64,000 nt of DNA from Bacteroidota bacterium (lineage in GTDB: Bacteria; Bacteroidota; Bacteroidia; Bacteroidales; JAAUTT01), in the NCBI GenBank assembly GCA_021779665.1, contig JAJYAG010000011.1, positions 1 through 64,000 on the forward strand. Reading direction: 5' to 3'. Of this stretch, positions 25,294-59,426 are shown one piece after another. The position numbers and the translations under genes were made by a program. Position 1 is the first letter of the stretch; each line of letters opens with the position of its first letter. A model generated the notes under the pieces. That model saw nothing but the letters and a program-made list of their open reading frames with translations. It was not told the DNA's origin and did no database searches.

Positions 25294-27921
25294 TCAATCT
25301 CCATCCCTGCGCATATTTTTTTTCTTCTTTGCAGATGGATTATCACTTATCTGGTTGTTCCATGCTTTTATAATGTTAAGCGCAGGTTTTACCCTTTCGG
25401 TGACAGGAGGAGCCTGGTCCCATGTATTCCAAAGGTAACGGTTGCTTGTGGCGATTTCATTTTTAAAGCTGATGGTCAGTGCTACGCCATCCGAAATAGT
25501 TACTTCTCTCGCATTTGTGGCCCGGTCATCATCCATAACCAGTCGCGCCGACGGGTCGGTAAAATTAAGGTAATGCCACGGGATGCGGATATTCATTTCA
25601 TTTCCGTTGAACCATACAGCATCCAGCGATGTAGCTGCAGCACCTGCTTTGCGAACTTTCAGCACTCCCGTTTTCTGGTACGAATCTTCTTCAAAGTTAT
25701 GTTTCAACCTAAGTAAATGCCAGGGGGCTCCGTTAGTTACCGTGGAATGGAATACCTGCTCCGGGTTGGCAGTGCCTCGGATGAACCAGATGCCATAGAG
25801 ATCGTAATCTCTGGTTACAAATAACTTAACCGAGTCGGCCTTGATAAGCAGAGCAAACTCCGACCGTTTGGTTGTAACTGCTCCGTTGGGTAAAACTGAC
25901 TCTCCAACCGATTCCTTATAAGTATCCATACCAATCCAAACGGAATCGCTGCCGGAAACAGCGCCGGAAAGATTAAGCTTCAGGTTGAAGTATTGAACAT
26001 CGGCAGCCACCTGCGCGGAAGTGATTTTTGAAACCGTTCCGCTGAGCTGATAGCTTTGAAAAACAGGTGCCGGGGGATCGAAAGCGATCATGCCGAAATT
26101 TTCTTCGGCACTGGCAACGCTGTGCCATAAGGGCATTCTTTCGGGGGCACTTTTGATGGGATCGAACAACCAGGTTCTTTTAAACCATTCGTCAATCCAC
26201 GAAAACACCATGCCTCCGCCACATCCTGCCGTACGGATATTTTTCAGCAGCCTGACGTTCATTTCTCCTTGTTGAACTTCGGTGAGACCTCCATGGTTCA
26301 TTCCCGAGTTGGCCGTATGGGCAATCCCCCAGGAACTGGGCACTCCGTATTCGGCAATGATGAGCGGTATGCCCGCATAATGACTTTTAAGATGTCGCAG
26401 GTAGCCAAGGTAGGGATTGAGCCCTTCTTCATCTGTATCGTCGAGGTACGCAGGATCTCTGTTGATAAAATCGGGATAATAGGGATAGGCATGATAGCTG
26501 GCAAAATATCCTGCAGTACCGGCATTCATCATAATTTTTGTCAGGTCGAAGCTGAACTTGTCCTCATCGGTTAAGTCGTCGGGCTCCGACGGGTGCTCCA
26601 TAGGATCAAGCGTGGGCCAGCTGGAGGCGCTAACCGGCCGCTGCACTTTATATTTATTCTTCTCAAAGGTTATAAGCTTGTCGAGACGCTCTGCAAGCCA
26701 AACCTCCGTGGGTGTTCCGGTTAATATCTTCAGGTTTGTACCTTCGTACCTGGTAAATGCCGAATTGATAAAATCTGTCATTTCTACTTCATAGGGATGG
26801 ATTTCCCGACCGATAATATATCCGAGTGTCCACCTTGAAACATCGGCATCGAACTTCCCGAAAGCTCTTCCGTAGCGTTCTCCAATGGTTTTCTTCCCGT
26901 GAATGCAGTCAATTACTTCTTCTATACCAGCATCAAACCCTGCTGTATATGGATATAGATTGCCGTTGAGCGTATCTTCCTGCAGCCATATTCCCTGGAA
27001 AAGGTATATGGGCTTATCAGGATGTGCATTGTTATATACGGCCAGCTCCTGATAGAACCGTGGATAATGCAGTGTATATGTTCTGATGGCATTAAATCCT
27101 GCATCGCCAATCATATTCAGCCAACGGCTGTATTGATCGCGTGTAGCAGCCAACTCTCCGGGTAATGTCCCAGGCACCGAAACTCCAAGATTTATTCCTT
27201 TGATAAATATTTTATTATACCCGGTTCCATTCCAGACACCAAGATAGTCGGTCACCGTAGCGAACGGGATTAAAGGCCGGCGGTAGAGACTGAAATCCAG
27301 GAGCTTTGTTTCGGGAATAGCAATATTCCGCAATAAAAGCGTATCGGCGTTCTCAGCAGTAATGGTAATCTGATAAGTGTTGACAGTTAAGCTTTTCAGT
27401 TCATGAAAAGTACCTACCGAAGCAACCTGCTGATAAGGTACCACCACAACTTTCTGTGTGAACTTTTTTCCTCCGGCATCAAGAACGATAAGGTATAAAC
27501 CGGGAACCACCCTGCCGCCATTCTCGTGATTACCATCCCAGGAATAGCTATATTGATCGGCCGGTAAATTCGCATTTTCCAGGATTCTTATAAGTTTGCC
27601 ATTCAGATTATATACAGAAACCATAACCCTGCAACCTTTCTCCAGCGAAAAAGCTATTTCGGTATTATTATAAAATGGATTGGGTGATGCCTGATATAAC
27701 GTTGTTTTTGAGGAGAGCTGCCGGCTGGAAGTTAATGAAACGCTATAAAATCCGCTGCCATTGGTAACCACTTCATATTTAACTGCCGGATCGAGTTCGT
27801 TTACAAAAGTCAGTTTGGCATTGGCCACAACCTGAGAATAATTGTCCTTCACATATCCTGTAAGCTGCGCACTTGCATTAAGCGATACCAGTAAAAACAA
27901 GACTACGGTAAAATACCTCAT
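25294..27921 (-). CDS. Secreted multidomain glycoside hydrolase-like protein with internal FlgD/T9SS-tail-like module
   Basis: This 875-residue protein has a signal peptide (1-19, cleavage near ASAQL). A carboxypeptidase-regulatory-like repeat spans about 20-64. Residues 76-162 read like a type IX secretion tail or FlgD-like Ig domain: ASPNPFYNNTEIAFSLEKG, VYNLNGKLIRIL, YSYSWDG, GRVVPGLYLIVL and KKFTQKVVVV. Residues about 220-600 look like a (beta/alpha)8 glycosidase: GINLG, FNAIRTYTLHY, GREIHP with Glu373, and IAEYGVPSSWG with Glu524 as possible catalytic pair. Residues about 620-845 are beta-rich and may bind carbohydrate. I cannot assign a GH family or substrate. The sorting-like module is internal rather than C-terminal, which is unusual. 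The last residues are basic (KKKKNMRRDGD). Confidence 0.75.
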   Translation of the reverse strand: MRYFTVVLFLLVSLNASAQLTGYVKDNYSQVVANAKLTFVNELDPAVKYEVVTNGSGFYSVSLTSSRQLSSKTTLYQASPNPFYNNTEIAFSLEKGCRVMVSVYNLNGKLIRILENANLPADQYSYSWDGNHENGGRVVPGLYLIVLDAGGKKFTQKVVVVPYQQVASVGTFHELKSLTVNTYQITITAENADTLLLRNIAIPETKLLDFSLYRRPLIPFATVTDYLGVWNGTGYNKIFIKGINLGVSVPGTLPGELAATRDQYSRWLNMIGDAGFNAIRTYTLHYPRFYQELAVYNNAHPDKPIYLFQGIWLQEDTLNGNLYPYTAGFDAGIEEVIDCIHGKKTIGERYGRAFGKFDADVSRWTLGYIIGREIHPYEVEMTDFINSAFTRYEGTNLKILTGTPTEVWLAERLDKLITFEKNKYKVQRPVSASSWPTLDPMEHPSEPDDLTDEDKFSFDLTKIMMNAGTAGYFASYHAYPYYPDFINRDPAYLDDTDEEGLNPYLGYLRHLKSHYAGIPLIIAEYGVPSSWGIAHTANSGMNHGGLTEVQQGEMNVRLLKNIRTAGCGGGMVFSWIDEWFKRTWLFDPIKSAPERMPLWHSVASAEENFGMIAFDPPAPVFQSYQLSGTVSKITSAQVAADVQYFNLKLNLSGAVSGSDSVWIGMDTYKESVGESVLPNGAVTTKRSEFALLIKADSVKLFVTRDYDLYGIWFIRGTANPEQVFHSTVTNGAPWHLLRLKHNFEEDSYQKTGVLKVRKAGAAATSLDAVWFNGNEMNIRIPWHYLNFTDPSARLVMDDDRATNAREVTISDGVALTISFKNEIATSNRYLWNTWDQAPPVTERVKPALNIIKAWNNQISDNPSAKKKKNMRRDGD

Positions 27922-38615: not shown

Positions 38616-40925
38616 TTATCGCTTCCTGAATGAAATGTTTTTACTGTCTCCCGGTTTAAGTGTGACTTCAGAACAGTTCAAAAGTGCATTTTCAGGAAGG
38701 GGTTTTTTGCAGTCATCAGCATATTCACTAAAAATCTTCACCCGGGCAACAGCTTTGGTAGGGTTTAAAAGTTTTATTTCGAGCACTGACTTTGTATCGC
38801 GGGTAATAACTCCCTCAATGTTGTCAATAACACAGAAGTACGATTTATCCGGCCTGACGTAAACTCCCGGCAATTCAATATACGAAAGCATCAGGGAAGT
38901 TTCGGCCCAGGTAGATCCATACATCAGCTCCCCGATGCCTTCCAGCCAGTCGGTTGTACTTACCCTTTCCGACATCCAGCCAAACTTCATTTTTTCGATA
39001 GGATTCAGCGGATGCGACAAATATTGCGGCATTGTATGTGCTATATCCCTGAGCCATTCCATGTAGCGGGTATTTCCTGTCGCTCTGTATAACCGCCACA
39101 GGGCAATACCGGAATAGGTGCAGATTCCGGGTGCTCCATGTTTATTCTGGGTATTTGCGGATACTATCCCGGTGGTTTTGACGCCCATTTTCCCAAGAGT
39201 GGAATTCTCGGGAAAAACATAATCGTAAGGCATTTCCCAGGTGATAAAAAGATTCGCCATTTCTTTGGATCGTTCCAGCCATTCGGGTTTTCGCGTGGCC
39301 TCATAAAGCAATGTAAACGACTCGAGCATGGCATAAGCCGATTCACTGTCGGGGTTCTGCATCGCATCGCCCGGACCGCCACAGGTGATCCCGTTTCTTA
39401 CATATTTGTTGTACATGGAGTCGGCCGAGGCTTCTGCAACACTTAAAAATTCAGCGTTTTTAAAATATTGTGATGCCAGCACCAAGGCTGCAGGCACTAT
39501 TGCGCCGCTTGTAGATCCGCCGACCATCACATCACCTGTTTCGCTGTCAATAAACTGTCCGTACTGGCTCCATTTGTTCCAGAGTTTCACAAACGAACCG
39601 GCAACCTGTTCCGTGCCTTTCTTCCATTCCTCTTTTATGGCGATATTCTGTTTCTCCATCAGCATCAACTGTTTCAGGATGTAGTAAAGACCATCGCCGC
39701 TTTTACGCACCAGATGCCAGTTTTTTGTATGGGGCTTCCGAATATCGCCGCCATACCACATGGTGCCTTTCTCGCCCGAATCCCAGAAAAAACCCGCCGG
39801 ACAAATTCCATCGGGAAAGAGCCAGTCGAAATTACGTATCACATTTTGTCGTGTGGAGTCGCTGCCGGCAAATAGCAGCGGATAAGTACTAATCATCCCT
39901 CCGGTCCAGCCTATCTGCCAGTCCTGCAGAAAATTCTCACGCATCCCTACCGAATAATAGCCATGCTTTTCAACCCAGTTCTGGGTGTTGAACTTTTGTT
40001 CCTGTACTTCAAAACAGGCTGAAAATGGAATCAATGGAGACTGTTTTACGGGAGGGTATAAATCGCTTCGTAATCCGGCAAAAGTGTCGAACAGACTGGC
40101 AATATCGGAGGCCGGGAAAAAACAGATGGTAACATTAAAAGACACTTCGTCGCCTGCTTTAAAATCAGGAGCTTTGTCCATGGATGGCACCTGGTTGTCG
40201 GTAATAAAATACTGGTGCTGCTCACGCACAACAGGGATGTTGATTCCTATCAGCGCCTGTTTCCTGTCGCGCGATTCCTCAATTGTAAAACCATGATCGC
40301 CCAGATCTGACTTTTGGTTGCTGAACATAAAAAGGCCTGTTTTAGTCGCGGGCGACTGAAACCCAACCGACGGCACTGTCATGGAGCCCGAACGTTCCTG
40401 AATCTTCGAGGGACCATTTTCGATATTCAAACGGGGCACATCGGAGACGATGATGGGTTTATTGGGGCCAATATCCTTGGGATCCAGTAATTTGGGCGAA
40501 TATTTGATCCTTCTCGATTCAAACCGGTTGCCATTATAGACAGCTCCAGGCATCAAAACATAATTGGAGGCGGACCAGTTATCTATTTCCAGCCAGAAGG
40601 ACAGGTTGGATGATTTTAAAGTTCCACTGTCCAAACGGCAGGTAAAAGTAAGCGTAAGCTTTTCGGTCTTTTCCAAAGAAAAATCAGCCCTGGTATTGAT
40701 TGTCCAGTAACTATCCTGAAACCGGATGCGGGTGGTTTCTCCATTAAGCTTTACCTTTTCATAAGCAGTTACTTTGTTATAATAATTAAAATCGTACTGG
40801 GTTATCTGAAATACAGGATGGCAGTTATTTTTTTCAAGAAGCTCAATCCATCGGGCATTCTGAGCTTTAGCAGGCCAAACCATGCAGACCATTAAAACAC
40901 TCAGGAGCAATAGCGGGTTCTTCAT
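38616..40925 (-). CDS. Secreted (alpha/alpha)-toroid-like protein of unknown family, last gene of the PUL
   Basis: This 769-residue protein has a Sec signal peptide (about 1-21, cleavage near AKAQN). The first 270 residues are beta-rich. From about 310 to 680 the sequence looks like a helical toroid: GMRENFLQDWQIGWTGGMISTYP, WDSGEKGTMWYGGDIRKPHTKNWHL, AYAMLESFTLLYEATRKPEWL and GICTYSGIALWRLYRATGNTRYMEWL. Such repeats occur in glycosidases and lyases of the six-hairpin type. A short beta domain ends the protein. I cannot place it in a known CAZy family. Its position after GH105 in the operon argues for a role in breakdown of the same polysaccharide. Confidence 0.7.
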   Translation of the reverse strand: MKNPLLLLSVLMVCMVWPAKAQNARWIELLEKNNCHPVFQITQYDFNYYNKVTAYEKVKLNGETTRIRFQDSYWTINTRADFSLEKTEKLTLTFTCRLDSGTLKSSNLSFWLEIDNWSASNYVLMPGAVYNGNRFESRRIKYSPKLLDPKDIGPNKPIIVSDVPRLNIENGPSKIQERSGSMTVPSVGFQSPATKTGLFMFSNQKSDLGDHGFTIEESRDRKQALIGINIPVVREQHQYFITDNQVPSMDKAPDFKAGDEVSFNVTICFFPASDIASLFDTFAGLRSDLYPPVKQSPLIPFSACFEVQEQKFNTQNWVEKHGYYSVGMRENFLQDWQIGWTGGMISTYPLLFAGSDSTRQNVIRNFDWLFPDGICPAGFFWDSGEKGTMWYGGDIRKPHTKNWHLVRKSGDGLYYILKQLMLMEKQNIAIKEEWKKGTEQVAGSFVKLWNKWSQYGQFIDSETGDVMVGGSTSGAIVPAALVLASQYFKNAEFLSVAEASADSMYNKYVRNGITCGGPGDAMQNPDSESAYAMLESFTLLYEATRKPEWLERSKEMANLFITWEMPYDYVFPENSTLGKMGVKTTGIVSANTQNKHGAPGICTYSGIALWRLYRATGNTRYMEWLRDIAHTMPQYLSHPLNPIEKMKFGWMSERVSTTDWLEGIGELMYGSTWAETSLMLSYIELPGVYVRPDKSYFCVIDNIEGVITRDTKSVLEIKLLNPTKAVARVKIFSEYADDCKKPLPENALLNCSEVTLKPGDSKNISFRKR

Positions 40926-44752: not shown

Positions 44753-47497
44753 TCAGGCCCATTCAGGTTTGCTTGCCCGCTGCTGAATCAGCCATTCGGG
44801 AATTTCGCCAAACGGATAACCGGCGTCGGGTACAAACAAGCCCACATCGCCCTGCCAGCGGTTGTAATCCACTTCACTGCCTTTCAATGTCAGGGACTGG
44901 GAATCGTTGCATTTAACGCTTACTACTTCAGTTCCGGAGCTGAGTTTTTCCTGATGCTCACAAAATGTAACCGTATCTTTTCCAACCCTCACTCCATTTG
45001 GAATTGCTTTCATGACCGGGGCTTCACTTCCGGGATAAAGAACTGTAATCATATCACCCGACTTCCCGGCTATCTCCAGACGTACACCGTTGGTCGATTC
45101 GAGTCCGCCGTTGGAGTGCTGCCAGTCAAATTTTTTCATAACAAACGAGGAATGCGTGCAAAAAACGGAAAGTTTTCCAAAGTCGATGGTTTGACCGTTC
45201 TGTAAAGCTTCATCTCCATAGGTATGAAAACAGCAGGCAGCCTCAATAGGGAGATCGGCCCAATACTGATCACGGAATACAAAGTAATCCTGAGTAGCAT
45301 TTTTAACCAGAACCACCGTCCGACGGTAAACCAGAGGATTTGAGAAATTCAAACGGGGATAACGTGCATCCCATACCTCGGGAGGAAGTGGGGCAACAGC
45401 CCGTAACCTGTCACTTTCAACCTGACCAATGGCAATATCGGCCACCGCTGAAGTTTTAAAGGCAATCACCCGCTCATAGCCGTCCATGTTGGCGTAGGGC
45501 ATATCGCCTATAAAAAAAGCCATGCGGTTGTGCATGTGCTCCTGTCCGGCACGGGGATGGTAGCTGCAATGATGATCCACTACCAATGGTTTCCCATTGG
45601 CGCAATAATGAAAGGCAAGCTGATCGCCATGATAATGGCAGCGGTTGGGTCCGCTTTTGAAACTCAGATAAGTTTCTTTTTCGGTTCCCGGATGGTGAGT
45701 AAACACAACACCAAATCCATGCAATTCTTCTGTTTTCCACGATTTTACTTCAGCTTCATCCACATTCACCACCGGCATTCCGGTTTGGCCCTGCCGGTCG
45801 GGGTGGGAATCGCCCACCGGAGAACCGCGTCGTACGTTTCCGTCGGGGTAACTTATTCTTTTGTAGAAATTTTCAGCAGCCTGCATCCGTTCGTTGATAA
45901 AATCCATATCGAAGCTCAGATACTTTTTACCAACTTCAATTATCTCTTTCCAAAGCGATAGTCCGTAGTAGCTGTACCCCGGACATTCCTGCCCGGCACC
46001 GCCCGGCAAAGTAATGGAATGATATAAATCTTCTTTAAATTTATTCCATGCCAGCTTCCTGAATGTTTCAAAGTTGGGATGCGCTCTCAAGGTTGCTGCC
46101 AAAGCAATGGGGACCAGATTATAATCGGTAAAGAAATTAGGATTCTCGGGCGAGAAATAATTCCAGTAACTGCCCCAGCAATCTTTATGGATAAGGGTTT
46201 GGAAACGGATCAGGGTGGAATCATTAGCAGGTCCATCCACTTTTTTCAGTGCTTCCTTTCCAATTCTCCTGATTTTACCCGTTGGGTTGGTCTGTTCCGA
46301 ATCATAAGGATTGATACTCCACCAGGTGACGGGTTTACCCTGATTTTCGAGTATATATTCATTATTTATTTTTTGAAGGCTTTCCCATGCATGGTGTGCA
46401 ATATAACCCGTATCCACAGGAAGCATTGAAGGAGAGAGCCACCAAAGTCTTTGTCCGTGCCAGGTTGAGCTGCGTATGGAGGCATAATCACCTCCAGGTT
46501 TTACAAAGCATTGCAGGCTGTTGTCGTGCGGCCATATCCATTGACTGGCCCGAACCACCACTGCGCTGACATAATTCTGATCATCGGTAACCGCAAAAGC
46601 CCAACCGTCCTTAAAATGCTGGTTCCAGCGCGGAATTAAATTTATGAAAAGCCCGGGTTCAAAAGAAACATTATTTATCGGCAACAAAGGACGGTCCATC
46701 GGAGGTACAACGAAATTTGAATCCCCTCCCGGGCCATTGTTAAACTGACGGCTGATCCCTTTGTGTGGAGTCCAACCCGCGCTAAGCGTGAGTTCCCAGT
46801 AATCGCCGGGTTCCATATTGTGCTGCTCAAAAATGGAGGCATGTTGCCATCCGGAAGCAAGCATGATATCAGTCTGGCTGAAAAACTTCCGGTCTTTTGT
46901 ACCCTCAAATTCATAACGCAAACGGAGTTTTGCAAACAAAGGACCGTTGCCTGTTACCTCAACAGTAAATTTCTCTAATTTCTTTGAGGTTTTCCACTCA
47001 CTCGATCCGGCAAAAACTCCATTATTTAAGCGAATGCCTGCAATAGGTCCCGTTAAGTTATTGCGGGAATTTGCCGGCACTTTAATGCACACAAATTTAT
47101 TTTCAATAAAATAAAAATCCCCGTCCAACCTTATCGAAACTTCAGGGACAAAGGTTCGGGGTGTTCCGGGAACTATTTCAAAATCAGCAGACGACTGCGG
47201 TTCAAAGTCATCGCTAATCCATATCTTCTTCTTTCCGTCAATTTCCTCAATCTGATAAGGCGCTTCCCTGGAACCATTTTTAACAAGAAATGATCCTGTT
47301 GGCCCTGGTAACTCATTTTTTAAACAAACGAGTTCATTTTTATATTTCCGGGAGGTAGGATTGTATATAACCGAAGTAGCCTTTGGCTGATTGCAGTTTC
47401 TCAAATTCATGGATGGAAAAACGATCAGCCCGGTTATTGCGGTACCTGCCGATTTTATAAACTTACGCCGGGAACTCTCTTTGAAAACGCCTGCCAT
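44753..47497 (-). CDS. Heparinase II/III-like protein, probable polysaccharide lyase
   Basis: This 914-residue protein has a twin-arginine-type N terminus (SSRRKFIKSAGTAITGL, 8-24), unlike the Sec signals of the other enzymes in the locus. The first 400 residues are beta-rich. A helical toroid follows (about 400-600), then a heparinase II/III signature at 619-661: YHGDQLAFHYCANGKPLVVD and a His-rich stretch HHCSYHPRAGQEHMHNR. A beta-sandwich completes the protein. Such enzymes cut uronic-acid-containing glycans by beta-elimination, leaving the unsaturated ends that GH105 removes. The catalytic Tyr/His cannot be fixed without a structure, and the PL family and substrate are not determined. The product could be periplasmic. 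Confidence 0.78.
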   Translation of the reverse strand: MAGVFKESSRRKFIKSAGTAITGLIVFPSMNLRNCNQPKATSVIYNPTSRKYKNELVCLKNELPGPTGSFLVKNGSREAPYQIEEIDGKKKIWISDDFEPQSSADFEIVPGTPRTFVPEVSIRLDGDFYFIENKFVCIKVPANSRNNLTGPIAGIRLNNGVFAGSSEWKTSKKLEKFTVEVTGNGPLFAKLRLRYEFEGTKDRKFFSQTDIMLASGWQHASIFEQHNMEPGDYWELTLSAGWTPHKGISRQFNNGPGGDSNFVVPPMDRPLLPINNVSFEPGLFINLIPRWNQHFKDGWAFAVTDDQNYVSAVVVRASQWIWPHDNSLQCFVKPGGDYASIRSSTWHGQRLWWLSPSMLPVDTGYIAHHAWESLQKINNEYILENQGKPVTWWSINPYDSEQTNPTGKIRRIGKEALKKVDGPANDSTLIRFQTLIHKDCWGSYWNYFSPENPNFFTDYNLVPIALAATLRAHPNFETFRKLAWNKFKEDLYHSITLPGGAGQECPGYSYYGLSLWKEIIEVGKKYLSFDMDFINERMQAAENFYKRISYPDGNVRRGSPVGDSHPDRQGQTGMPVVNVDEAEVKSWKTEELHGFGVVFTHHPGTEKETYLSFKSGPNRCHYHGDQLAFHYCANGKPLVVDHHCSYHPRAGQEHMHNRMAFFIGDMPYANMDGYERVIAFKTSAVADIAIGQVESDRLRAVAPLPPEVWDARYPRLNFSNPLVYRRTVVLVKNATQDYFVFRDQYWADLPIEAACCFHTYGDEALQNGQTIDFGKLSVFCTHSSFVMKKFDWQHSNGGLESTNGVRLEIAGKSGDMITVLYPGSEAPVMKAIPNGVRVGKDTVTFCEHQEKLSSGTEVVSVKCNDSQSLTLKGSEVDYNRWQGDVGLFVPDAGYPFGEIPEWLIQQRASKPEWA

Positions 47498-55138: not shown

Positions 55139-56923
55139 CTAAACCTTAATCCCCATCTTCTTCATCAGGATGGATGCATTCAGACTTTTACAGATCCCAT
55201 GGTTAAGTTTATAGTCGAAGTACAACTCTTCGCCATGAATTTTTACGTCGAAGTTGTAGTTGTCGATTTTTTCGGGTAACTCTTTTTCGAGTTCCGAGAG
55301 CGATAAATCGTGAGTAGCCACAATAGCAGCAGTGTCCTGCTGTATAAGCTGCCGTATCAGCGCTTCTGATCCTATATGCCTGTCGTTCGAATTGGTGCCC
55401 CTCAGAATTTCATCGAGCAGCAGAAAAACATTAGGGTTTGTTTCGGACTCCCTGATGATCATGGCAAGCCGCTTCAATTCAGCGTAAAATGAGGAGGTAT
55501 TATCTTCGAGCGAATCGGAAATCCGCATACTGGTGAGTATTTTAACAAGCGAAACCTTAAAGGATGTTGCACAAACTGCCGATCCGGCAAATGCAAGTAT
55601 CATATTTACACCGCAGGTGCGCTGGAAAGTGCTTTTCCCCGACATATTCGATCCGGTAACCAGAACTATTTTACCAGCTCCATTTATTTCAAAATCGTTG
55701 CTAACACGTCTGTTTGCAGGAATTAACGGGTGACCCAGGGTTTCAGCTTTAAGCTGAAAATATTCGTCGGTCACTTCTGGTAATACCCATGCAGGATGAT
55801 TATAACTGGTATTGGCAATGCTTGATAATACCTCAACTTCAGCCATGGAATCGAACCACCTGGCAATAAAGGGTGCATTGCGCTGTTTCCATTTTTCGAG
55901 CTGATAACAAACATGAATGTCCCAGAAGAAAAAAATATTCAGCGGTACCGATACCATCACATTCAGCCGCAGATCGAGTTTATTAACAAGCGAAGATAAC
56001 TTATGAATTATCCCTGAAGCAGAGCCTGTCCCATGCAGCTGGGAAAGAATGAAACGCATTCTTTCGGATGTAAAACTTTGACCTTCGATCAGATTTATTG
56101 CTTTGCCGTACGATTGAAGCATCTCGTAGGATTTGCTGACTTGCTGATGAAGATTTGTAACTAATTTCAGGTATTTATAATTCACCAGCATATTGGCCGA
56201 AATTACAAGTATCAGCAAAGCCATAGGCATCCCTTTTATAACAAGCACAACCGCTGCCACACTCAATAACGAAAGAACGATGGTAAGAATCTGCAGAAAC
56301 CTTTTCCCAAGAAACAGGTTCGGACTGTTTACCCATTGCAATACTGTTCCGGGATGACTGGCTGCGTCTTTATACTCATATCCCAGGGCCATTAGCTGCT
56401 GGCGCCAGTCGGCCATATCTTTCAACTCGGTAACAGCCTTTTGGCGAAGCCGGATCTGTTCCGGTGTTCCCGGAGCTTTTAACCATGCAGCAAGCATATC
56501 GGCAGCGGGCTTACTGATGGTGCGGTTTAAAAACTGAAATAACGAAGCTCTTCCGAATATGTCGAGATCGTAAGTGTAAGGATGATTTTTATCCAGATAT
56601 TCCGATCCGTCGGGAAAAGAACTGTAATCGCCCGCAAGGCTTTTCAACTCTAACTGGTTAATTATGCAAAGATGCTCGTAGTACTCTTTCTTTTTGATAA
56701 TTCCGTTCTGATATTTTATAAGCCAGCCCAGGGAGAAAAGTCCGATAACCAGTGTAATAACCGCAACAGGGACAGAAACAGAAAACAGTACATAAAACAG
56801 AATAAGGCTCAGGATAAACAGAACAAGTCGGGCCAGGGAAAGCTGGTTTTCCTTTCGTTTTAACAGATTGGAGGTCCTGGTAAATTCTTCAACTCTGGAT
56901 TTATAATATTCGTTTAGCTGCAT
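55139..56923 (-). CDS. MutS-family ATPase with transmembrane segments
   Basis: This 594-residue protein has a MutS-type ABC ATPase domain at its C terminus: Walker A GSNMSGKST at 424-432, Walker B FLLLDEILRGTN at 500-511 and the His switch VATHD near 535. The MutS core (helical lever region) precedes it, but no mismatch-recognition domain I and no Smr nuclease domain is seen. Hydrophobic segments at about 33-67 (LVLFILSLILFYVLF, VAVITLVIGLFSLGWL) and near 205-240 look like membrane helices. The ATG at 56923 is chosen; the frame extends 8 codons from a TTG. It is probably not a repair protein of the MutS1 type. The role is unknown. Confidence 0.85.
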   Translation of the reverse strand: MQLNEYYKSRVEEFTRTSNLLKRKENQLSLARLVLFILSLILFYVLFSVSVPVAVITLVIGLFSLGWLIKYQNGIIKKKEYYEHLCIINQLELKSLAGDYSSFPDGSEYLDKNHPYTYDLDIFGRASLFQFLNRTISKPAADMLAAWLKAPGTPEQIRLRQKAVTELKDMADWRQQLMALGYEYKDAASHPGTVLQWVNSPNLFLGKRFLQILTIVLSLLSVAAVVLVIKGMPMALLILVISANMLVNYKYLKLVTNLHQQVSKSYEMLQSYGKAINLIEGQSFTSERMRFILSQLHGTGSASGIIHKLSSLVNKLDLRLNVMVSVPLNIFFFWDIHVCYQLEKWKQRNAPFIARWFDSMAEVEVLSSIANTSYNHPAWVLPEVTDEYFQLKAETLGHPLIPANRRVSNDFEINGAGKIVLVTGSNMSGKSTFQRTCGVNMILAFAGSAVCATSFKVSLVKILTSMRISDSLEDNTSSFYAELKRLAMIIRESETNPNVFLLLDEILRGTNSNDRHIGSEALIRQLIQQDTAAIVATHDLSLSELEKELPEKIDNYNFDVKIHGEELYFDYKLNHGICKSLNASILMKKMGIKV

Positions 56924-57521
56924 TGAATAAGGATTAAACAATATCAACGGCTAAGCTATGAAATTATTTGCAATTGGAATGGTTTAGTTGAATACAGAGT
57001 CGACAGTTCACGGACCACTCCCGATAGCTATCGGGACCACAGTCAAAAGCCGGAAATAACCTGGTTAGTCCATAGCTTTTAGTTCATAGACCATGGTTGA
57101 ATACAGGGTCGATTGATCTCAACTCTGCCGCATTTTATTGACTATCCTGTATTGTCTATCGACTATCGAGGCGCTGTTGCAGATTATTGTTGCTACTAAA
57201 ATAGAATCTGCAATTGCGGCGATATTAAATTTAATGCGCTTTTTGAGACATTATCACGCCGCCAAAATTAATTCTGGTTACTTTAACCCAAGGCGCCGTT
57301 TCACTTTGCCCTGGGCTGAATTATCAAAGGCCTTCAGCCTTAAAAAACATAAAATCCAATCCACATTTTTGTACAACATAGCCACTATGGAATTATCGTC
57401 TATTCTGTATTGGCTATTGACTATGATGGTTCTGTTGTATATTATTGTTGTTTGAAATTTCTCATTTAATAAAGAATTTATTAGGAGGCAGGCGGCCTTC
57501 TTCCCTCGTACTTCTTACTCC
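56924..57521. repeat. Intergenic repeat cluster (TTGAATACAG, GACTAT and palindrome)
   Basis: This 598-bp gap has no supported gene. It contains TTGAATACAGAGTCGA (56988-57003) and TTGAATACAGGGTCGA (57097-57112), and the perfect 18-nt palindrome TCCCGATAGCTATCGGGA (57019-57036). Two diverged direct copies of a roughly 57-bp unit begin TTGACTATCCTGTATTG (57138) and TCGTCTATTCTGTATTG (57395). The unit also includes CTGTTGxAxATTATTGTTG. Confidence 0.65.
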
Positions 57522-59426
57522 CTACCTGATTCCATGCTCCTTAAGAAACGAAACATACCGGGAGTCAATTTTCAGAATATGGTTAATCAGCCAGTCCTTC
57601 AAAAAGTTTATGATATCGAGTGATACCGTTGCATCTCCATTCTCAAATTCATTGGCAAAATTCTTGATTTTTTCCACAAATTTGTGATGCTGCTGGACGT
57701 GCTGCTGGGTATCTTTATAACCAAACTCTTTGAAATACTTTTCTTCGTTGCCAAAGTGGTAAACTGTATAATCAACCAGCTCTTTCAGATTTTTCCTGAT
57801 TTCCTTTTTGTTATTGTTGGATCCGAATGCTGCATATAGTTTGTTAATTATATCCACAAGTACTTTATGCTGATCGTCAATCTCTTTTATTCCAATGCAG
57901 AAGTTAGGCCCCCAGTCAATTAACTTACCGGAACGCTCATATCCCTTTGAACCCTTTTTTGCTGCTTTAAAAAAGCTGATCACTTCTTTTAACTGTTCAG
58001 CCTGACTGGAGAATTCTTCTGCACTTGTTGCCAGTTCTTCCGAAGCGGCAGCATTCTGCTGGGTTACTCCATTCATTTTCTGCACGGCAGTGTTAATTTG
58101 CTCGGCACCCGTAGAAAGTTCGTTACTGGATGCAGCAATTTCCTTAACCATGCGCGACGATTTTTCAAATTCGCTGGCAAGTTGTTCGGCCAGTTTCTCA
58201 GTTTTTTCAGTAGTTTCAACAGTCGATCTTGAGAGGGCAATAATTTCGTCGGCAGCCTGACGGCTGTTTTCGGCCAGCTTGCGCACTTCTGAAGCCACAA
58301 CAGCAAATCCCTTTCCCTGATCTCCGGCCCGCGAAGCTTCCACTGCCGCATTTAAAGCAAGAATATTGGTTTGATAAGCAATGTCGTTTATAATAGCGAC
58401 TTTTTGAGAAATATTCCTGATAGCTGCTAAAGTTTCCTTGCTGGAGGATGCCATTTCGTGCATTTTCACTCCGGCTTCGGTAAATACTTTATCGCCCAGC
58501 TTTGCATTCTCGGCATTTTGTTGAATATTGGCAGCCATTTCCTCTATCGAGGACGATACTTCCTCTGCCGATGCGGCCTGTTCCGAAGCACCCTGCGATA
58601 ACATTTGCGAAGCGTCGCTTATCTGAGCGCTTCCCTGCACAATACTATCGGCTCCGAGCGTTATTTCTTTTATAATTCTGGCCAGATTATCGTTCATCCG
58701 GTTGAACGATCCTGTGAGTGAACCAATTTCATCGTTGGCCACAATTTTTATTTTTTCTCCCAGCATCCCGTTCGACATATCCATAAATACAGGCAAAATA
58801 TTGCGTACTGGCGTGGATACGAATTTATTGATAATAAAAATGCTGGCGACTATAAGAAGTATAATGGTAAGAATAATGGTAACATATACGGTACTGCTTA
58901 AGTTCTCCCTTCTTTTGCTGATCTTCAGGATTGCCTGCGTAACATTCTCATCCGCACTAAGCATTTCAACGGAGAGCTGGTAAACATCCTTCAGGCTTTT
59001 TGACAGGGTTAATGAGTCGGATGAGGTCACTCCTTCAGCACTCTGCCTGAAATTTTTCCAGCTGCTTTCGGCCCTGTCCAATACATCCGGGATTTTAGTA
59101 TAAATACCATTGAGTTTAAATGTCTCATCCAAATGCTGGTATTGACCCCCATCTTTAATTATATTCAGATTGGTTTCGTATTGCTGTAAAAGCGTTTTCA
59201 ATTTACCTCCTGCCCCTGTTTCGCCTTTTGCAGCAACTTCGCTGTAAAACGCAATTTGTTGCGACAAAACTTTATTGTCCTTAGCTATCTCTGCTAATAA
59301 GTGTGTACCCTCGGTTCTGCCTGCCAAATAGAAAATAAGGTCCAACGCTGTCAAAAACAGCAATAAAAGAAATAATGAGCCTATCTTCCAATTAATAGAC
59401 AAATCGCGAAATCTCCTGAAGTTCAT
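57522..59426 (-). CDS. Methyl-accepting chemotaxis protein fused to a bacteriohemerythrin domain
   Basis: This 634-residue protein has TM1 at about 16-36 ([20 protein letters not shown]), a periplasmic helical sensor of about 140 residues, TM2 near 180-200 and a HAMP domain to about 255. The chemoreceptor signalling hairpin spans about 260-490 ([29 protein letters not shown] at the tip). The C-terminal hemerythrin domain (about 505-630) has the diiron ligands: [23 protein letters not shown] and HILKIDSRY. It would relay O2 (or NO) binding by the diiron site to a chemotaxis-like pathway. No che or flagellar genes lie in the window. It stands alone, with a repeat cluster downstream. Confidence 0.93.

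Follow-up and report, generated by a model that had tools for sequence, protein, structure and literature searches.

A widespread family of MutS-fold ATPases predicted to be embedded in the bacterial membrane

The window, a stretch of 64,000 nucleotides of Bacteroidota DNA, encodes on its minus strand a protein that combines a MutS-type ATPase with two predicted membrane hairpins. The gene and its features are as follows, with residue numbers referring to the protein and fractions to its full-length relatives.

55139..56923, minus strand: gene of the membrane MutS-like ATPase; 594 amino acids, ATG start, stop codon at 55139-55141
56714..56839, minus strand: predicted membrane part of hairpin 1 (TM1, TM2), residues 29-70; Kyte-Doolittle 2.52 and 2.38
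56636..56917, minus strand: hairpin 1 with its putative cytosolic stalk, residues 3-96; two long helices (3-47 and 51-96) in the AlphaFold models
56522..56569, minus strand: conserved DLDIFG..SLFQ.LNRT motif, residues 119-134; start of MutS domain III by hhalign to MutS1
55790..56593, minus strand: MutS core/lever, domain III, residues 111-378; all helical, with hairpin 2 inside and no clamp domain IV
56165..56302, minus strand: predicted hairpin 2 (TM3, TM4) inside domain III, residues 208-253; Kyte-Doolittle 2.70 and 1.62
55142..55789, minus strand: MutS ATPase domain V, residues 379-594; Pfam MutS_V 100.9 bits against a cut-off of 30.2, 1.1e-28
55628..55654, minus strand: Walker A GSNMSGKST, residues 424-432; pattern in 93/93
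55382..55429, minus strand: Walker B and D-loop, residues 499-514; D504 and E505 identical in 93/93
55307..55318, minus strand: H-loop ATHD, residues 536-539; H538 identical in 93/93

The containing open reading frame extends over 55139-56947 on the minus strand, and a TTG codon at 56947 would give eight extra residues; the ATG at 56923 is the likely start because close relatives begin at the aligned position. The gene stands isolated, more than 400 bases from either neighbour, between an MCP-hemerythrin gene and an ECF sigma/FecR/SusC set, in which the names FecR and SusC were assigned by eye. The former (57522-59426, minus strand) encodes a methyl-accepting chemotaxis protein that carries a hemerythrin domain at its C terminus and is likely an oxygen- or redox-sensing chemoreceptor. 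The gap of about 600 bases upstream of the MutS-like gene contains an imperfect 58-base direct repeat (57135-57192 and 57393-57450, 79%), and elsewhere in the window three long reading frames of 875, 769 and 914 amino acids (25294-27921, 38616-40925 and 44753-47497, minus strand) have no Pfam match at 1e-6. Across 95 family loci, surveyed with up to six reading frames per side and blastp clustering, no neighbours conserved across clades were found. The commonest cluster occurs in six loci, and the sets that do recur are restricted to small clades; their genes, among them YjbR, HemN-like, SPOUT methyltransferase and GyrB-like ones, are unrelated and of housekeeping or unknown kind. With no cluster beyond 6 of the 95 loci, gene neighbourhood was dropped as a clue to function. 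As to defence, PADLOC gave only weak P-loop matches (at most 16.5 bits) to mad8 and mad3, and the neighbour clusters are not conserved.

A preliminary description of the gene, based on its sequence alone, had proposed an intact MutS ATPase domain joined to two hydrophobic pairs, with neither a mismatch-recognition nor an Smr domain. The ATPase is indeed intact, as judged from its MutS_V score and invariant motifs, and MutS_I, MutS_II, MutS_IV and Smr have no Pfam match in the protein at E <= 1. A canonical MutS1 (L119) matches domains I, II, III, IV and V in the same scan (MutS_I at 1.3e-38), and the missing I, II and IV are therefore not a failure of the method. Both the ATPase and the hydrophobic pairs are present, but the ATPase is not alone with them, since MutS domain III appears to have been kept. 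The window protein scores slightly below the Pfam MutS_III cut-off (30.7 against 34.1 bits), and the named relatives from Bacteroides finegoldii and Parabacteroides distasonis (L175 and L176) score above it, at 48.5 and 59.7 bits. Profile comparison with a MutS1 alignment (hhalign) gave a probability of 99.9 over residues 120-585, with a long gap spanning the region of domain IV. In MutS, the contacts with DNA and MutL are made by domains I, II and IV. Computation strongly supports that a MutS-type ATPase and its core/lever are retained intact and that the domains that touch DNA and MutL are lost; the loss of the clamp, the retention of domain III and the existence of a widespread family with its own clade (see below) go beyond the preliminary description.

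No NCBIfam model reaches its cut-off for the window protein. The MutS1 equivalogs score 140.1 and 102.9 bits against cut-offs of 480 and 641.7, and mutS2 scores 69.9 against 400, compared with 839.7 for the same genome's own MutS2. The host genome also encodes a MutS1, on a cut contig. The protein shares with MutS1 the core/lever of domain III and the fold of domain V with all ATPase motifs, but it lacks domains I, II and IV, has four predicted membrane helices and belongs to a separate clade. With MutS2 it has in common the core and ATPase without a mismatch-recognition domain (fold match 9a5o_B, Z 26.1, rmsd 3.2, 383 residues aligned); it differs in lacking Smr, in carrying membrane hairpins and in falling outside the MutS2 clade.

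The membrane segments were assessed as the best Kyte-Doolittle windows of 19 residues, with a threshold of 1.6, in 93 relatives of at least 560 amino acids (95 were collected and two fragments left out). The places of TM1, TM2, TM3 and TM4 reach the threshold in 80, 92, 91 and 69 of the 93, respectively, and even TM4, the weakest segment, reaches 1.2 in 89. Because the same places recur in almost all of the 93 relatives, which come from several phyla, the two hydrophobic pairs, which the preliminary description had already recognized, are more than chance. Among 17 canonical MutS1 and MutS2 rows, assigned by the analyst and 14 of them also present in the tree, a peak of at least 1.6 is absent from 12 and occurs once in five, and none has two. 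In the flanks taken as cytosolic, lysine and arginine amount to 2.2, 2.5, 1.3 and 1.9 per 10 residues; the corresponding values for the two short loops are 0.6 and 0.3. Hydropathy, charge and the structural model together strongly support a predicted topology of four membrane helices in two tight hairpins, with the N terminus and all large parts in the cytosol. The protein could instead be a soluble MutS paralogue with its hydrophobic helices buried, the outcome that would have undone the preliminary description. A fifth, weaker hydrophobic helix at 302-332 (median 0.89) is probably buried in the soluble part, so that such helices do occur there; yet the best 19-mers of TM2 and TM3 are free of charged residues in 72 and 74 of the 93 relatives, and both the inside/outside charge pattern and the canonical MutS control speak against burial, making a soluble protein hardly credible. 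The anchoring proposed in the preliminary description is accordingly supported by hydropathy, charge pattern and conservation in the 93 relatives.

An AlphaFold model from 16 sequences (pLDDT 87.8, pTM 0.86) lacks any strand of at least three residues ahead of residue 383, and modelling residues 1-378 alone reproduces the same helices (pLDDT 90.3, pTM 0.83). In VIA-align, residues from about 110 to 594 superpose on MutS III+V structures with Z 24.7-27.3 and 366-415 residues aligned, one row being shorter. Without the ATPase, residues 111-378 superpose on residues 268-567 of E. coli MutS (Z 14.1, rmsd 4.1, 200 aligned); a Z of 14 is close to what helical models can attain even where no clear relative exists. 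A Foldseek search confined to residues 1-378 returned no hit with E <= 0.001; MutS appears at E 0.076, and ABC exporters only at E 0.48 and above. The VIA-align rows outside MutS are the coiled coils of LipC and JetABC (residues 1-99, Z 10-11), a likeness set aside because it resembles common long-hairpin arrangements. In the viral fold library the top matches are giant-virus MutS proteins, with a TM-score of about 0.5. Together, superposition and profile alignment place hairpin 2 within domain III, at the lever/clamp position of MutS, and hairpin 1 in the place of domains I and II.

Within the ATPase, K430, D504, E505 and H538 are invariant in all 93 relatives, and ATP turnover is therefore under selection. 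Outside the ATPase the strongest motif is formed by H114 and D119-R134 at the beginning of domain III, and R32 and R134 are the only lysine or arginine residues conserved at 80% or more; the lever has none, and therefore no conserved DNA-binding surface is seen. The least conserved part is the membrane helices, with a mean column identity of 28-37%. Their sole polar residue conserved at 80% is R32, at the inner end of TM1. Low conservation of these helices fits a plain anchor and a working bundle equally well. The overall pattern speaks for a working ATPase and against a conserved grip on DNA or a specific polar path for transport.

These observations bear on the idea that the protein is a membrane-tethered MutS relative still working on DNA, for example by retaining or turning away DNA that is recombining, entering the cell or segregating at the membrane. 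In the PDB the protein is best matched, in both sequence and fold, by members of the MutS family, mostly DNA-repair proteins, and a GyrB-like gene adjoins three relatives from Bacteroidales (L027, L043 and L051). However, domains I, II and IV are absent, the lever has no lysine or arginine conserved at 80%, and no DNA-repair, competence or defence neighbour recurs, so we regard such a role as unlikely.

To place the protein among its relatives, a tree was built on the columns of the ATPase domain only, with the membrane parts excluded. The family forms one clade (95/94), separate from MutS1, MutS2, the KamC-like rows and a likely MutS8 pair; the comparison with MutS2 envisaged in the preliminary description thus puts it in a clade of its own. 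Its sister is clade B (L129-L132 and L136), the two together (A+B) being recovered at 95/92, with MutS1 outside them and the KamC-like rows grouping with MutS2, also outside. In a first tree, which included two very long KamB/C-like rows (K_L123), the family was not one clade; the second tree differs by two changes, the removal of these rows and the addition of L173 and L174, either or both of which may have made the difference. The placement of the long-branched row M_L126 is unsure. This row (L126:2131-3468, minus strand) is a soluble MutS III+V protein of 446 amino acids without hydrophobic segments, lying near the membrane family. A genome of the window's genus carries a tandem pair of divergent MutS-type ATPases of 516 and 502 amino acids (L123:1259-4350, plus strand).

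Members of clade B have a second membrane hairpin at the same place as in the family, but are about 536-587 amino acids long and usually have one N-terminal hydrophobic segment instead of hairpin 1 (L136 has two). Clade-B-like proteins also occur in Ruminococcus, on a plasmid of Staphylococcus epidermidis (L177:8194-9804) and in the record of a Staphylococcus phage (L178:4491-6107). The latter two are annotated as mismatch repair, and each has one N-terminal segment and a later hairpin.

KamC, the reactivase ATPase of lysine 5,6-aminomutase (NF052383), is likewise a short MutS-type ATPase without DNA-recognition domains, which raises the alternative that the window protein acts as chaperone or reactivase of a single membrane enzyme and has its hairpins solely for anchorage. 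The ATPase of KamC-type proteins is the same (80 bits for the window protein, under the cut-off of 300), and the membrane helices vary freely, as those of an anchor would. Nevertheless, the KamC-like rows cluster with MutS2, away from the family, and the family has no constant partner gene, unlike the rows L124 and L128, in which the adjoining gene, read by eye, resembles an aminomutase gene. We consider this alternative unlikely as well.

Another candidate is MutS8, of which Ogata et al. 2011 is reportedly the defining paper. According to PMC5698495 and PMC3749498, MutS8 is known from Cardinium, Amoebophilus and algal giant viruses, and the former source describes MutS8-affiliated Cardinium proteins that lack most MutS domains, have a predicted signal peptide and show 40% identity as a pair. 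Two proteins (L173 and L174, of 716 and 732 amino acids) from a 1.1 Mb genome in the order of Fulvivirga share 40.1% identity and are likely MutS8, an identification that rests on their fit to the description of the Cardinium pair and that no record makes by name. The family resembles MutS8 in being a reduced MutS of Bacteroidota, and the likely MutS8 members form a neighbouring branch. However, this pair, which stands for MutS8 in the tree on the strength of the description, nowhere reaches a hydropathy of 1.6, shows no membrane hairpin by that test and branches outside both the family and its sister. That the window protein simply belongs to MutS8 is therefore very improbable.

The family is widespread. 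Its profile matches 93 of 296 genomes in Bacteroidota. For the phyla of Ktedonobacter, Clostridium oryzae and Granulicella the figures are 15 of 81, 16 of 119 and 25 of 80, respectively, and for the order of Fulvivirga, at the looser 1e-40, 257 of 390. A few of the matches counted are to clade B or are partial. In a set made up of the window's own genome and 30 relatives, the gene is present in 18 of the 31, once with an in-frame stop and once in two pieces. In IMG/VR, two of 34 loci (L134 and L135) have a full-length member and one (L136) a clade-B member, many others being canonical MutS1; these three viral-record loci are probably host DNA. None of the six matching phage records covers 80% of the window protein.

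Collectively, a membrane-embedded MutS-fold ATPase is well supported, and with moderate confidence we favour an integral-membrane protein resembling a half-size ABC protein, which would be driven by ATP and act on a membrane client rather than on mismatches. Judging from its anatomy, two copies would associate by way of their ATPase domains, in the manner of MutS and ABC ATPases, and ATP binding would close the dimer. The levers and the stalks leading from the ATPase to the membrane might then transmit this closure to some eight bundled membrane helices, moving them against a client that could be a protein or a lipid. The fuller proposal, which we advance tentatively, is a MutS-type ABC mechanotransmitter or transporter in which levers drive the transmembrane helices. 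It would have arisen independently of the ABC transporters, would carry a mismatch-repair label in several phyla and would add a further use of the MutS fold to DNA repair and ribosome rescue. Clients other than DNA have precedents in this fold. KamC, going by its NCBIfam name, has one, and MutS2 acts on ribosomes, according to PMC10897456. No published description of the present membrane MutS was found in a search of open-licence papers, including PMC3166940, PMC12292046 and PMC8438181, and within that literature the earlier remark that a MutS protein at the membrane has no defined role still holds.

Public records name the relatives "MutS family DNA mismatch repair protein". This label is not supported by the anatomy of the protein, because it lacks the mismatch-, MutL- and DNA-binding parts and has four predicted membrane helices. 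Named members include those of the gut commensals Parabacteroides distasonis and Bacteroides finegoldii, and the function is therefore directly testable. If the favoured reading of an ATP-driven membrane protein is right, a common bacterial gene is functionally mislabelled and a membrane branch of the MutS fold has gone unrecognised.
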